NCBI GenBank assembly: GCA_036496605.1
Contig: DASXKV010000008.1
Coordinates: forward strand, 1-64,000
Direction of reading: 5' to 3'
Source: Gemmatimonadaceae bacterium
GTDB lineage: Bacteria; Gemmatimonadota; Gemmatimonadetes; Gemmatimonadales; Gemmatimonadaceae
DNA length: 64,000 nt
This document shows, in pieces, positions 3,840 through 50,768 of this stretch (within the stretch, counting starts at the first letter, position 1; each line of letters begins with the position of its first letter). Below the pieces are notes generated by a model that saw nothing but the letters and a program-made list of their open reading frames with translations, was not told the DNA's origin and did not search any database. A program made the translations under genes and the position numbers.

Positions 3840-5560
<1,721 letters not shown>

Positions 5561-6472: not shown

Positions 6473-7058
6473 CGCTCGTACCGGGCGAATTGATGGCTGT
6501 CCAGATGAAACGAGGGCAGTGCCGATCCAAACGATCGGTGTCCCGAAGAGAATGCAGCTCGTATCGTTTGAATTGATCGGTGTAGAGAAGGGATCGCAGC
6601 TCGTATCGATTGAATGGATCGGTGTCGGGAAGGGATCGCAGCTCGTACCGATTGAATGAATCGGTTTCGAGAAAAGAATGCAGCTCGTATCGATTGAATG
6701 CATCGGTGTCGAGAAGGAATCGCAGCTCGTCCCGATTGAATGGATCGGTGTCGCGAAGGGATTGCAGCTCGTACCGATTGAATTCATCGGTGCACAGAAG
6801 AGAATGCAGCTCGTACCGATTGAATGGATCGGTGTCCAGAAGAGAAGGCAGCTCGTCCCGATCGAAGTGATCGCTGTACAAAAGAGATTGTAACTCGTAC
6901 CGATCGAAGTGATCGGTGTACCGGGAGCATCAACCGTTGTTCCGGACGAATGAATCGCCGTACACCAAGAGCTGACCGTCGAACAGCACGCATGCAAGGC
7001 TGTACAGAAAGCATCTCAGGCTGCACCGCTCGAATGCGAGGCTGTACAGAAAGCATGT
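6473..7058. repeat. 42-bp tandem repeat array, at least 12 in-register units
   Basis: Units begin at 6555, 6597, 6639, 6681, 6723, 6765, 6807, 6849, 6891, 6933, 6975 and 7017, always 42 bases apart with no indel. One shorter (38 bp) and one degenerate unit precede them. A typical unit starts CAGCTCGTACCGATTGAATG and continues GATCGGTGTCCAGAAGAGAA. Units 1-9 are alike; units 10-12 have drifted strongly but keep register. The core carries the dyad CCGAT-N7-ATCGG in most units. Variable columns show no codon-position bias, so I do not call it coding. There are no unique spacers, so it is not CRISPR. Confidence 0.85.
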
Positions 7059-7275
7059 GAGGCTATCGAGCGCAGATGCACACGCGTACCGGTTTAGTCG
7101 CGCCGCGTTCCGCTCCCATTCACCGCCGTCCAGAGTCCTCCGCTCGCCCTACAGCTGACTTCTCACCCTGCATACCTGGGATTCACGCGATCACAGACGA
7201 GATGAACCGATGTCCCGCTCGATGTGATCGCATCACCGGCGAGACTGCTCACTTCGCCGACGACATCGACGACTT

Positions 7276-7355
7276 CGGCGACGCATCTACAACTCCGGCG
7301 ACGCAGTTACAACTCCGGCGACGCATCTACAACTCCGCCGACGACAATCGACAAC
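7276..7355. repeat. 20-bp tandem repeat block
   Basis: Three consecutive 20-base units (CGGCGACGCATCTACAACTC; the middle one has AG for TC) are followed by a degenerate fourth beginning CGCCGACGACAATCG. It lies within the same gene-free island as the 42-bp array but is unrelated in sequence. Confidence 0.8.
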
Positions 7356-12694: not shown

Positions 12695-13036
12695 GTGGCC
12701 GACAACTGTCTGTTCTGCCGCATCGTCCGCAAGGAGATCCCGGCGAAGATCGTCGCCGAGACCGAGGACTGCGTTGCGTTCCGCGACGTCAATCCCCAGG
12801 CGCCGGTGCACATTCTCGTTGTCCCGCGTGTGCACGTGCCATCGGTCAAGGAAGTGACGGACCCGTTACTCGTCGGGAAGCTCACGGATCTGGCAAAAGA
12901 CCTCGCTCAGCGGGAAGGAGTTGCTGACGACGGGTATCGACTGGTGATCAACACGAATTCCGACGCGGGACAAACGGTATTTCATCTTCACGTTCATCTG
13001 CTCGGGGGGAGACACATGACCTGGCCGCCGGGGTGA
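12695..13036 (+). CDS. HIT-family nucleotide-binding hydrolase
   Basis: 113 residues from GTG 12695, with a strong Shine-Dalgarno sequence (GAGGAGGAAA) just upstream that fixes the start. The histidine-triad motif HLHVHLLGG sits near the C terminus, and CLFCRIVRKEIPAKIV near the N terminus is typical of the HinT/PKCI group. The family hydrolyses nucleoside phosphoramidates or related compounds. It closes the hrcA-dnaJ-prmA-rsmE run. A 122-bp inverted repeat begins 48 bases after the stop. Confidence 0.93.
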   Translation: MADNCLFCRIVRKEIPAKIVAETEDCVAFRDVNPQAPVHILVVPRVHVPSVKEVTDPLLVGKLTDLAKDLAQREGVADDGYRLVINTNSDAGQTVFHLHVHLLGGRHMTWPPG

Positions 13037-13083
13037 CGTTGCCGCCCGTATCGCTCGAGTTCGATCTCACGCTCGCTTGATGA

Positions 13084-13205
13084 GTGAGCTCGAGACTCGA
13101 GAAGTGAGTGATGAGATCGGGCTTACTCCGTGGGGCGGGCCAGCATCTCACCCACTATCGTCGAGCCCAGCTCCGAGCCACGAGACGGCAGCGACGAGTT
13201 TCGAG
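13084..13205. repeat. Left arm of 122-bp inverted repeat (family A) flanking the S23 gene
   Basis: This arm is the reverse complement of 13668-13789 over all 122 bases with two mismatches. It begins GTGAGCTCGAGACTCGAGAA and contains GTGAGTGATGAGATCGGGC. A lone, shorter, palindromic relative lies at 32411-32574 before pheS. Confidence 0.95.
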
Positions 13206-13214
13206 ATTGAGACT

Positions 13215-13583
13215 TTATTCGTTTTCGGTGGTTTGAAGGACCTTCTTGCGGTACGTGTACGTCATCTTGCGAATCTCGATTGCCTCAGTGCTGAATTTTT
13301 CCCATTCGCCGAGCGAAAACAGATCGAGATCGCGAGCCGTGAGAAGATGGCCCTCCGTTTCATTCAATGACTTGATCGTCATATCCAGGAAGCGAGCAAA
13401 CTCCCTGTTCGTCGCCGCGCCGCAGCCCTCGGCGATCGTGTCGTGAACACTGTCCGCCGCGCCCGTGAGCTGATTCTTCAAGCGTGAGTGCCCCTTGCGC
13501 GCGAAATTGCGCGTCTGCTTGTGCAGCGCAATCGCCAAAGCGTGGGCCCGTTGCCAGATTTTGAGTGATTTGAAGTCGCGCAT
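13215..13583 (-). CDS. Four-helix-bundle protein, S23/23S-rRNA-IVP type
   Basis: 122 residues, helical throughout, starting MRDFKSLKIWQRAHALAIAL. The segment RLKNQLTGAADSVHDTIAEG and the later ARFLDMTIKSLNETEGHL are typical of the S23 family (PF05635/TIGR02436). The family was first seen as ORFs inside intervening sequences of 23S rRNA genes and is related to bAvd of diversity-generating retroelements; its biochemical role is unclear. No rRNA or reverse transcriptase is present here. The gene is antiparallel to all neighbours and sits between near-perfect 122-bp inverted repeats, which suggests a mobile unit. Confidence 0.92.
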   Translation of the reverse strand: MRDFKSLKIWQRAHALAIALHKQTRNFARKGHSRLKNQLTGAADSVHDTIAEGCGAATNREFARFLDMTIKSLNETEGHLLTARDLDLFSLGEWEKFSTEAIEIRKMTYTYRKKVLQTTENE

Positions 13584-13667
13584 TGTTGACCATACGGGCC
13601 GCGACCTCCGAGCCTAACACCAATTCGTCTCGAGCCTCATCCTCTCATCTCGAAGCTGAAGCTGAAT

Positions 13668-13789
13668 CTCGAAACTCGTCGCTGCCCTCTCGTGGCTCGG
13701 AGCTGGGCTCGACGATAGTGGGTGAGATGCTGGCCCGCCCCACGGAGTAGGCCCGATCTCATCACTCACTTCTCGAGTCTCGAGCTCAC
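13668..13789. repeat. Right arm of 122-bp inverted repeat (family A)
   Basis: Reverse complement of 13084-13205 with two mismatches in 122 bases. It lies 84 bases upstream of the S23 start codon (the gene reads leftward), so any promoter of the S23 gene is within or beside this arm. Such high identity between arms implies recent origin or ongoing conversion. Confidence 0.95.
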
Positions 13790-13973
13790 ATTCATTGACC
13801 GCGATCGAAGGTCCGAGCCACACCGGCCGAGCTCGAGGCTCGAGGGCGAGACGCCAGACGCTCAGCTGATCGCTTGCTTCGCGCTTGACAGCCCGGAACG
13901 AGCGACGCAACGTAACTTCCTCGCATCGGTCTGACTGGCCTCCGAATTCGCCGCCGAGGAGGGTCCTCGAGCC

Positions 13974-14162
13974 GTGTCGGAAATCATCATTCACGACGAT
14001 GAAAACTTCGAGCGGGCGCTCCGGCGCTTCAAAAAGAAGTGCGAGAAAGCAGGCATCCTTTCGGACCTGCGCAAGCATCGTCATTACGAGAAGCCGAGCG
14101 AGCGGCGAAAGCGAAAGATGAACGCAGCGATCAGAAAGAATCGCCGTACCCGCACCGCCTGA
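13974..14162 (+). CDS. rpsU: 30S ribosomal protein S21
   Basis: 62 residues from GTG 13974, preceded by a Shine-Dalgarno-like GAGGAGGG. The text [20 protein letters not shown], then [28 protein letters not shown] split across the middle, is characteristic of bS21. S21 helps start-site binding on the small subunit. It heads rpsU-yqeY-mutS2-dnaG, a variant of the classic macromolecular-synthesis operon. The stop overlaps the yqeY start (TGATG). Confidence 0.96.
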
Positions 14163-14605
14163 TGGCGGCACTCTCGGAGCGCCTGCAGCGCGATCTCAAC
14201 GCAGCTCGCAAAGGTGGTGACAAGGCGCGAACGCTCCTCCTCGGCACGATCATCGCCGATGTGAAGAATCGCGAGATCGAGTTGCGCCGGGATCTCACCG
14301 ACGACGACGTGATCGAGGTGCTTCGTCGCGGCATCAAGAAGCGACGCGAGTCCGTGGAGATGTACGACAAGGGGAACCGCGCCGATCTTGCCGATAAGGA
14401 GCGTGCGGAAGCCGAAGCGCTCGGTGCGTACTTGCCCGCGGCCGTGAGCGAGGACGAGCTGCGCGCCGCGGTGCGCGCCGCGATCGCGGCCGGAGCGAAC
14501 AACATGGGTGCGGTGATGGGACGTGTGATGCCCCAGTTCAAGGGACGAGCCGAGGGTGGCGAGATCAGCGCCATCGCGAAAGACGAGTTGGGGCGAAAGC
14601 CGTGA
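14162..14605 (+). CDS. yqeY: GatB/YqeY domain protein
   Basis: 147 residues, starting [20 protein letters not shown] at the ATG that overlaps the rpsU stop. The YqeY fold signature continues with RTLLLGTIIADVKNREIELR and the C-terminal GAVMGRVMPQFKGRAEGGE. It resembles the tail domain of GatB that binds tRNA; the role of stand-alone YqeY is not well defined. Position directly after rpsU is common in bacteria. Confidence 0.92.
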   Translation: MAALSERLQRDLNAARKGGDKARTLLLGTIIADVKNREIELRRDLTDDDVIEVLRRGIKKRRESVEMYDKGNRADLADKERAEAEALGAYLPAAVSEDELRAAVRAAIAAGANNMGAVMGRVMPQFKGRAEGGEISAIAKDELGRKP

Positions 14606-14737
14606 TTGGTGGTTGGTTATTGGTTATTGGTGGTTGGTGGTTGGTGAATAATGAGGTCGGCGAGCTTTGCTCGCTGACCATCCGAATCACGAGCTACCAA
14701 TCACCAACTACCAACCACCAAATTCACCAACCACCAG
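14605..14737. repeat. Mirrored GGTTGGT / ACCAACC tract with internal hairpin
   Basis: The gap between yqeY and mutS2 begins with repeats of ATTGGTGGTTGGTT on the + strand and ends with ACCAATCACCAACTACCAAC. GGTTGGTGAAT (14639-14649) pairs exactly with ATTCACCAACC (14722-14732). Between them a separate stem, GGTCGGCGAG (14655-14664) with CTCGCTGACC (14670-14679), has a 5-base loop and one G-U pair. No poly-T follows, so it is not a classical terminator. The related tract before obg is one-sided. Confidence 0.7.
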
Positions 14738-21441: not shown

Positions 21442-21957
21442 GTGCGCATCGTTGCCGGTCGCTGGCGCGGCCGCACGATCAAGCCGCCAGCCGACTCTCG
21501 CGTTCGTCCGACCGCCGATCGCGTGCGTGAAGCGTGGATGAGCATCGTCATGCCCGAGCTTCCTGGCGCGCGCGTGCTCGACCTCTTTGCCGGCTCGGGC
21601 GCGTTGGGGCTGGAAGCACTCTCGCGCGGCGCCGCGACCGCCGAATTCGTCGAGCTGGCGCCGAAAAGCCTGCGAGCGCTGAAGGAGAATGCCGAGTCAT
21701 TGGGCGCCGGCGATGCAGCGGTGATCCACCGAGCCGACGCGCTCCGATTCGTCAGCGCACTCGAGCCGCGCGCGTTCGACGTCGCCTTTGCCGACCCTCC
21801 CTATTCGCTGAGACTCGCGACGCGGCTTGCCGCGCTCTGGCTCGCGGTGCCATTTGCCGCGGTTCTCGGAATAGAACACCGACAGGACGAGGTGCTCCCC
21901 GGCGACGGTGACCGGCGCAAATACGGTGACACGGTCGTGACGATCTATAGGGGTTAG
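21442..21957 (+). CDS. rsmD: 16S rRNA (guanine-966-N2)-methyltransferase RsmD
   Basis: 171 residues from GTG 21442 (MRIVAGRWRGRTIKPP). SAM motif I is VLDLFAGSGALGLEALSRGA and the catalytic motif is FADPPYS. It methylates G966 of 16S rRNA. The final codons AGG GGT TAG, giving Arg-Gly-stop, are part of a TAGGGG repeat tract that starts inside the gene, so the repeat supplies the stop codon. coaD follows 128 bases later, as in many bacteria. Confidence 0.94.
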   Translation: MRIVAGRWRGRTIKPPADSRVRPTADRVREAWMSIVMPELPGARVLDLFAGSGALGLEALSRGAATAEFVELAPKSLRALKENAESLGAGDAAVIHRADALRFVSALEPRAFDVAFADPPYSLRLATRLAALWLAVPFAAVLGIEHRQDEVLPGDGDRRKYGDTVVTIYRG

Positions 21958-22060
21958 GGTTTAGGGGCTAGGGGTTAGGGTTTAGGGGCTAGGGTTTACC
22001 GATTTGGTGATTAAGGTTGACCCTAGCCCCTAGCCCCTAGCCCCCAGACCCTAGCCCCTC
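21950..22060. repeat. Telomere-like GGGGTTAGGG tract with C-rich mirror
   Basis: 21950-21997 has seven or more G runs with 3-base linkers (GGGGTTAGGGTTTAGGGGCT...). 22018-22060 has the complementary CCCTAGCCCC units. The G-rich half fits the G-quadruplex pattern G3+N1-7 and could also pair with the C-rich half as a long hairpin. Shorter relatives occur after the SpoIIE gene (26113-26141) and at the end of the MBL gene (31000-31012). Confidence 0.85.
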
Positions 22061-32410: not shown

Positions 32411-32574
32411 GCCGAGCTTCAGAAACGAGATGTGAGTGATGAGATCGTGCCTTTTCGATGTGGCACGCGGGCATCCCACCCACCATCGGCGAGCCGATGG
32501 TGGGTGGGATGCGCGCAACGCCTCACGGAGTAGGCGGGATCTCACGACTCACGCCTCGCGTCTCAAGCTCGAGC
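32411..32574. repeat. Solo palindromic element, repeat family A
   Basis: The element occupies half of the 320-base gap between rplT and pheS. Its outer arms match the inverted repeats of the S23 locus (GTGAGTGATGAGATCG on the left; CACGGAGTAGGCGGGATCTC on the right). The centre is a perfect 19-bp stem, GCATCCCACCCACCATCGG (32471-32489) with its complement (32494-32512), and a CGAG loop. At the S23 locus the matching arms also reach a CGAG, then continue and enclose a gene. It could act as a terminator, though no T run follows. Confidence 0.85.
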
Positions 32575-50712: not shown

Positions 50713-50721
50713 GCGGGTGGA

Positions 50722-50752
50722 GGGTAGAGGGTTGAGGGTAGAGGGTTGAGGG
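50722..50752 (+). repeat. GGGTAGAGGGTTGA tandem tract, G-quadruplex pattern
   Basis: Just after the glycosidase stop, GGGTAGAGGGTTGAGGGTAG and AGGGTTGAGGG give five G runs each separated by four bases. The 14-bp unit repeats about three times. It lies upstream of the tRNA promoter. Confidence 0.75.
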
Positions 50753-50768
50753 CAGAGAGTTGAGCCGC

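Follow-up and report, generated by a model that had tools for sequence, protein, structure and literature searches.

Intervening sequences (IVSs) of 23S rRNA are a known setting of S23 genes; the one of Coxiella burnetii contains S23p and is excised by RNase III (PMC4990558). The locus described here lies in a stretch of 64,000 nt from a Gemmatimonadaceae bacterium (the window; contig DASXKV010000008.1, positions 1 to 64,000) and resembles such IVSs by its PF05635 protein, an open reading frame enclosed as a loop by inverted ends that pair with each other and a sporadic, selfish-looking distribution. It differs from them in its position outside rRNA, between hit and rpsU, and S23 units have far longer or tandem-heptad arms, dispersed gene-less satellites whose ends match theirs, and several different units per genome.

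A second comparison is offered by the RAYT/REPIN systems (PMC3116915), where a gene is likewise flanked by the repeat it governs, gene-less inverted pairs are numerous and the units are lineage-specific. In the genome carrying the window (G000, the own genome), the flanking repeat likewise recurs as scattered inverted pairs. In place of a Y1 gene flanked by REPs, however, the window has a PF05635 gene, and the own genome is without a Y1_Tnp match. S23 is a four-helix bundle lacking a Y1/HUH domain, and its repeat is a tandem heptad rather than a single REP. Like MITEs, the S23 hairpins include inverted-repeat forms that derive from a gene-bearing element and lack its gene; they differ from MITEs and insertion sequences in that no transposase is known for them, target duplications are not visible, and the arms vary between copies of one genome. 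Nor does the unit have the nearby partner reverse transcriptase (RT) of the Avd protein in diversity-generating retroelements, as the own-genome RT fragments sit on contig C38, not on the unit's contig, and many S23-rich genomes have no RT match.

Heptanucleotide repeats form the last of the related systems. The units GGGAATC in Xanthomonas and GGGGA(T/C)T in Nostoc were treated as quadruplex-forming, and two Xanthomonas genomes are reported to contain 70 and 75 convergent inverted pairs (PMC4692102). S23 loci share these G-rich heptad arrays, and relatives of both genera have S23 genes inside them. The terms 'S23' and '23S' are absent from the text of that paper, and among open-access papers we found none linking S23 to heptad repeats. 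The protein and the repeats were each known singly.

The S23 unit between hit and rpsU

The preliminary description reported an S23 gene enclosed by inverted repeats between hit and rpsU, a layout as in 23S IVSs placed in ordinary chromosome without rRNA, and no transposase in the unit. All of this was borne out, with hit at 12695-13036 and rpsU at 13974-14162. The open reading frame is intact and its protein passes the cut-offs of PF05635 (E=1.6e-25) and TIGR02436 (E=3.9e-25). The fold is predicted to be a four-helix bundle from matches to two solved relatives (Table 1), of which 2GSC is XCC0516 from Xanthomonas campestris (PMC10053308). The S23/IVP gene is antisense to both neighbours; no transposase is encoded in the unit, and no Rfam family, rRNA included, matches the locus.

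The arms, first given as 122 bp with two mismatches, were correctly seen in substance and slightly underestimated in length: they measure 128 nt each and are identical at 125 of 128 positions as inverted repeats (98% complementary), the best local stretch of pairing being 123/125. Their score is 119, whereas 1000 cross-locus pairings of upstream and downstream flanks reach no more than 20, so the pairing is not due to chance. Lag 7 is the top periodicity in both arms, albeit a weak one (z 2.3 and 3.4), and the arms therefore resemble decayed heptad arrays. The leader of about 80 nt falls within the range of about 70-130 nt that is common among 69 armed S23 loci.

Table 1. Coordinates of the S23 unit and of related hairpins and arrays (window positions unless a contig is named)
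Feature	Position	Strand	Remarks
Left inverted arm (3' of S23 gene), decayed heptad-like	13084..13211	-	about 30 further homologous places in own genome
S23 / 23S_rRNA_IVP four-helix-bundle protein gene (predicted fold), intact, 122 aa	13215..13583	-	profile matches; structural relatives 2GSC, 2RLD
Leader, 5' arm to S23 start codon	13584..13661	-	satellite homology extends in to 13646
Right inverted arm (5' of S23 gene), G-rich on coding strand	13662..13789	-	satellite matches mostly end 13787-13789
S23-less hairpin of window-arm family, no loop, rplT-pheS gap	32414..32570	.	arms 78-80% identical to 13646-13789 arm; neighbours named by reading their sequences
Convergent heptad hairpin lacking S23, TTGGTGG family (unit shared with S23 copy L003), yqeY-mutS2 gap	14602..14736	.	
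Convergent heptad hairpin lacking S23, TAGGGGT/GGGCTAG (unit shared with S23 copy L004)	21948..22059	.	
Solo heptad array GGGTAGA (unit of S23 copy L002)	50715..50764	+	
Solo heptad array ACCAACC (other-strand rotation of L003 unit)	4491..4537	-	
Gene-less inverted pairs of window arm, other contigs	C38:56881-57162; C44:41249-41531; C42:59093-59260; C60:39581-39726; C45:2269-2416		

The distance between hit and rpsU is 63-210 bp in 14 relatives against 940 bp here. In a genome of the same genus (G001, whose rpsU is truncated in its contig), the unit is missing and hit leads straight into the rpsU promoter region. The window unit can therefore be regarded as an insertion, which is a simpler reading of the compared sequences than repeated loss elsewhere. 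Empty sites in close strains were among the checks proposed in the preliminary description; presence of the unit at the identical place in all relatives, the outcome it named as contrary to movement, did not turn up, and absence from hit-rpsU in relatives, one of them same-genus, agrees with the mobile type of unit it had suspected. A target-site duplication, which it proposed to look for at 13083/13790, is not visible there. About 120 bp of extra sequence lie outside the arms in the gap, and the exact ends of the unit are uncertain. The gap also holds other inserts, of 518 bp with a different inverted repeat at L053 (G008) and of 683 bp at L061 (G006), and may thus be a repeated landing site.

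Armed S23 genes, gene-less hairpins and heptad arrays

The own genome has 11 S23 genes. Together with those of its relatives they number 96, and 69 of these have inverted arms above the 99% point of the cross-locus control (55 above the control maximum), a figure to be taken as a lower bound because some open reading frames read into the 3' arm (L074); for the other 27, this test detected no arms. Each species compared is represented by a single genome, in many cases a draft, and relatives are not independent data points. In named genomes from many phyla (Planctomycetota, Acidobacteriota, Chloroflexota, Clostridia, Verrucomicrobiota, Cyanobacteria, Proteobacteria and others), the same test found arms at 47 of 77 S23 genes. 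Nostoc sp. UCD121, a set without its own cross-locus control, has arms at all eight scorable S23 genes or fragments, with scores of 15-29 and differing units.

A period of 7 dominates the arms at 34 loci of the relatives and 36 of the named genomes, 8- or 14-mers being found at times. The 5' arm is G-rich at 65/69 and 44/47 loci in the two sets, and the G-rich strand faces inward. The unit varies by locus even within the own genome (GGGCGAC, GGGTAGA, GGTGGTT, GGGGTTA). Among 99 proteins compared, the window S23 has no close relative and groups in the tree with a diverged copy elsewhere in its own genome (branches 0.5 and 1.0). The clade that holds it (L023, L031, L090, L098, L101, L103, L113, L114) has mostly long arms without clean tandem units, and has expanded separately in G006, G008 and G021.

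Outside the unit, the own genome contains about 30 further significant matches to positions 13600-13850, with 73-98% identity, most of which stop at window position 13787-13789. The preliminary description had missed these copies, the heptad make-up of arms like these and the link of S23 with heptads across phyla. In some of these satellites, local reading finds related sequence extending about 30 bp farther outward, so that 13789 is not necessarily the true terminus. Many of the copies are gene-less inverted pairs with 0-14 bp between the arms, and the window itself holds one of them, besides heptad hairpins and solo arrays built on the units of other S23 copies (Table 1). For the heptad hairpin between yqeY and mutS2, a clean insertion is not supported, G001 holding unrelated sequence of similar length there. 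The window has other tandem repeats: about nine copies of a 42-bp unit, 83% alike, at 6533-6919 (a 126-bp unit fits too), a 21-bp repeat at 6983-7064 and a 20-bp repeat at 7258-7343.

In 834 kb of the own genome, we counted 63 period-7 arrays. Adjacent skewed pairs within 200 bp are G-rich then C-rich in 22 of 23 cases and never the reverse. By a stricter count of 41 arrays, 88% lie within one mismatch of a unit from an own-genome S23 locus, compared with 12% on average and 27% at most for same-sized unit sets from other genomes. The matching test covers two genomes; in the second, G008, 64% of the arrays match its own S23 units and none do in the control. Among the genomes sampled, the number of period-7 arrays per 100 kb is 7.6, 11.0 and 9.5 in three S23-rich genomes (G000, G008 and G036, with the S23 loci themselves included in the count), 1.75 as the mean of ten genomes that carry a single S23 gene or two, and 0 and 0 in two S23-negative relatives. 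Rhodanobacter, with one S23 gene, has no period-7 array in 200 kb. The single S23 gene of Ramlibacter has arms of the TAGGGGC type, and its sampled DNA holds TAGGGGC arrays at other places too, including one hairpin without a gene.

Searches of whole genomes, in which overlapping positions within one array are counted separately, indicate how specific the S23-arm units are. GCAGAGT has 179 matches in its source genome G007 and none in 59 others; GGAGTCA has 252 in G035 and at most 12 elsewhere; GGGACCC, the unit of S23 arms in G121 and G150, has 46 and 122 in these two and no more than 15 in any of the remaining 117 Lysobacteraceae genomes. The published Xanthomonas heptanucleotide GGGAATC (PMC4692102) is, with variants, the unit of the S23 arms at L363, L367 and L380. 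It is present in 31 of 54 S23-positive and 9 of 65 S23-negative Lysobacteraceae (Fisher p=6e-7, uncorrected for relatedness). Six S23-negative members of the family (G105, G114, G162, G170, G179, G180) have 11-87 GGGAATC matches; S23 may have been lost there or missed in a draft, or satellites may have outlasted their master. In G024, two convergent pairs of 8-mer arrays, CACAGAGA / CCTCTGTG, lie about 130 bp apart (L343 6317-6497 and 9490-9671); they leave too little space for an S23 gene and make up an octamer satellite family.

Movement, selection and arm homogenisation

L018 and L106 of G035 are two copies of a whole unit, 526 bp long and 90% identical, and the only clear recent duplication of an entire unit that we found. 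Their homology is bounded on both sides by the outer edges of the GGAGTCA arms, the flanks being unrelated, and no target-site duplication is seen. Comparison of these sequences gives direct support, from one pair, for the mobility of S23 units. Most differences between the two S23 genes are silent (dN/dS 0.07), so the protein is kept functional; other S23 pairs give 0.07-0.31 where the estimate is finite.

Many copies are nevertheless old and sessile, since some sites are common to several genera: seven genomes have S23 at the same ychF site, and four have it at an mnmE-mnmG-like one (genes named from sequence). The S23 proteins from the ychF site are not monophyletic in the tree. At orthologous sites, the arms diverge between species and stay complementary within most loci (L073 36/37, L079 32/34). 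In L007 and L008, they are 89-94% alike against 74% for the gene-bearing stretch. Both observations indicate that arms homogenise with each other. The preliminary description took near-identical arms as a hint of recent movement; given that orthologous arms differ between species and still match within a locus, arm identity is a sign of homogenisation and not of age, and the claim as worded finds no support.

Homogenisation between loci, as at L007 and L008, would also be expected if S23 were a passenger in some loops, the heptad hairpins arising and spreading through replication slippage, template switches and recombination among their scattered copies. We consider this unlikely, as each S23 unit predicts the satellite unit of its genome, the two sampled S23-negative relatives are without period-7 arrays, and the strong purifying selection on S23 after duplication is unexpected for an idle rider.

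Covariation of the arms within loci at orthologous sites could alternatively point to RNA. The arms would pair in the transcript, RNase III would cut out the S23 message as it excises the IVS of Coxiella (PMC4990558), and the hairpins would be processing or regulatory sites bound by S23, their spread being incidental. The protein family and the paired ends are those of rRNA IVSs, and the transcript of the window unit is predicted to fold extremely stably, at -440 kcal/mol compared with -260 for shuffles. Selection on sense RNA pairing should, however, favour G-U over A-C mismatches, and the excess is weak (191 vs 156, p=0.07). Moreover, the window gene runs opposite to both hit and rpsU, and satellites are manyfold more numerous than S23 genes. 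An RNA-level function as the whole explanation is in our view quite improbable. At L073, L079, L116 and L124, S23 lies between putative mnmE and mnmG genes and shares their strand, and the hairpin would therefore lie in a co-transcribed region, the most IVS-like setting.

The mover and the proposed element

The master-satellite logic and the convergent pairs are those of RAYT/REPIN (PMC3116915), which raises the question of whether these are ordinary REPINs moved in trans by Y1 (RAYT), or else retroelements moved by RT with S23 as an Avd-like helper. Two other S23 proteins have bAvd-like Pfam matches below cut-off; the window S23 protein has none at E 0.001. Y1 transposase has no match in G000, G006, G007, G008, G018 and G021, and RT none in G006, G007, G008, G018, G021, G035, G036 and G051. 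Array-rich genomes without a Y1 match led us to reject the former mover, and S23-rich genomes without an RT match the latter. G005 shows the opposite combination: it has three Y1 matches, yet neither S23 nor period-7 arrays in 200 kb. Taken as a whole, this explanation is hardly credible. A trans-acting IS transposase is a possible mover. The S23 protein itself matched no nuclease family.

We consider it rather probable that the window unit represents the 'master' copy, with its gene, of a mobile hairpin element, which would be organised like RAYT/REPIN around a non-nuclease protein and whose mechanism we infer as follows. A master would consist of two inverted arms, mostly locus-specific 7-nt arrays with the G-rich strand inward, around a leader and the S23 gene; gene-less hairpins with matching arms would be its satellites. 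As an oligomer, which in the solved relative XCC0516 is pentameric, S23 may recognise its own hairpin extruded as a single strand, and this recognition is the most economical view. S23 would then drive copying or insertion, probably through host replication or repair chemistry, which is proposed because S23 has no known nuclease domain and neither Y1 nor RT is needed. Template switching at the hairpin and slippage could keep the arms of a locus alike while allowing the heptad to drift. The window copy would be an older member, with decayed heptads and arms still homogenised. Points against this reading are the 27 S23 genes at which the arm test found nothing, the absence of a visible target-site duplication, the single clear whole-unit duplication, the old sites common to several genera, the nine S23-negative Lysobacteraceae with GGGAATC and the array-free 200 kb of Rhodanobacter. 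The evidence for a role of S23 in trans is correlative.

More broadly, S23/IVP may be the specificity factor of transposase-free mobile hairpins, the heptads of Xanthomonas, Nostoc and others being its satellites, the 23S IVSs copies that landed in rRNA, and movement the work of a non-catalytic oligomer and host replication on the extruded hairpin. We put this forward tentatively, doubt slightly outweighing belief. S23 hairpins and their satellites, of which the own genome and genomes of many other phyla carry tens to hundreds, suggest a so far unrecognised class of mobile element that does without Y1 and RT.

Free-standing S23/IVP genes and G-rich heptanucleotide arrays are hereby joined as master and satellite, matched by unit genome by genome, and a possible origin is offered for the inverted termini of 23S IVSs. 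The S23 family, whose structures were solved while its function is unknown, is offered a testable role. If S23 does drive movement, a small protein without a known nuclease or polymerase domain would mobilise DNA, which would be a new design for such elements.
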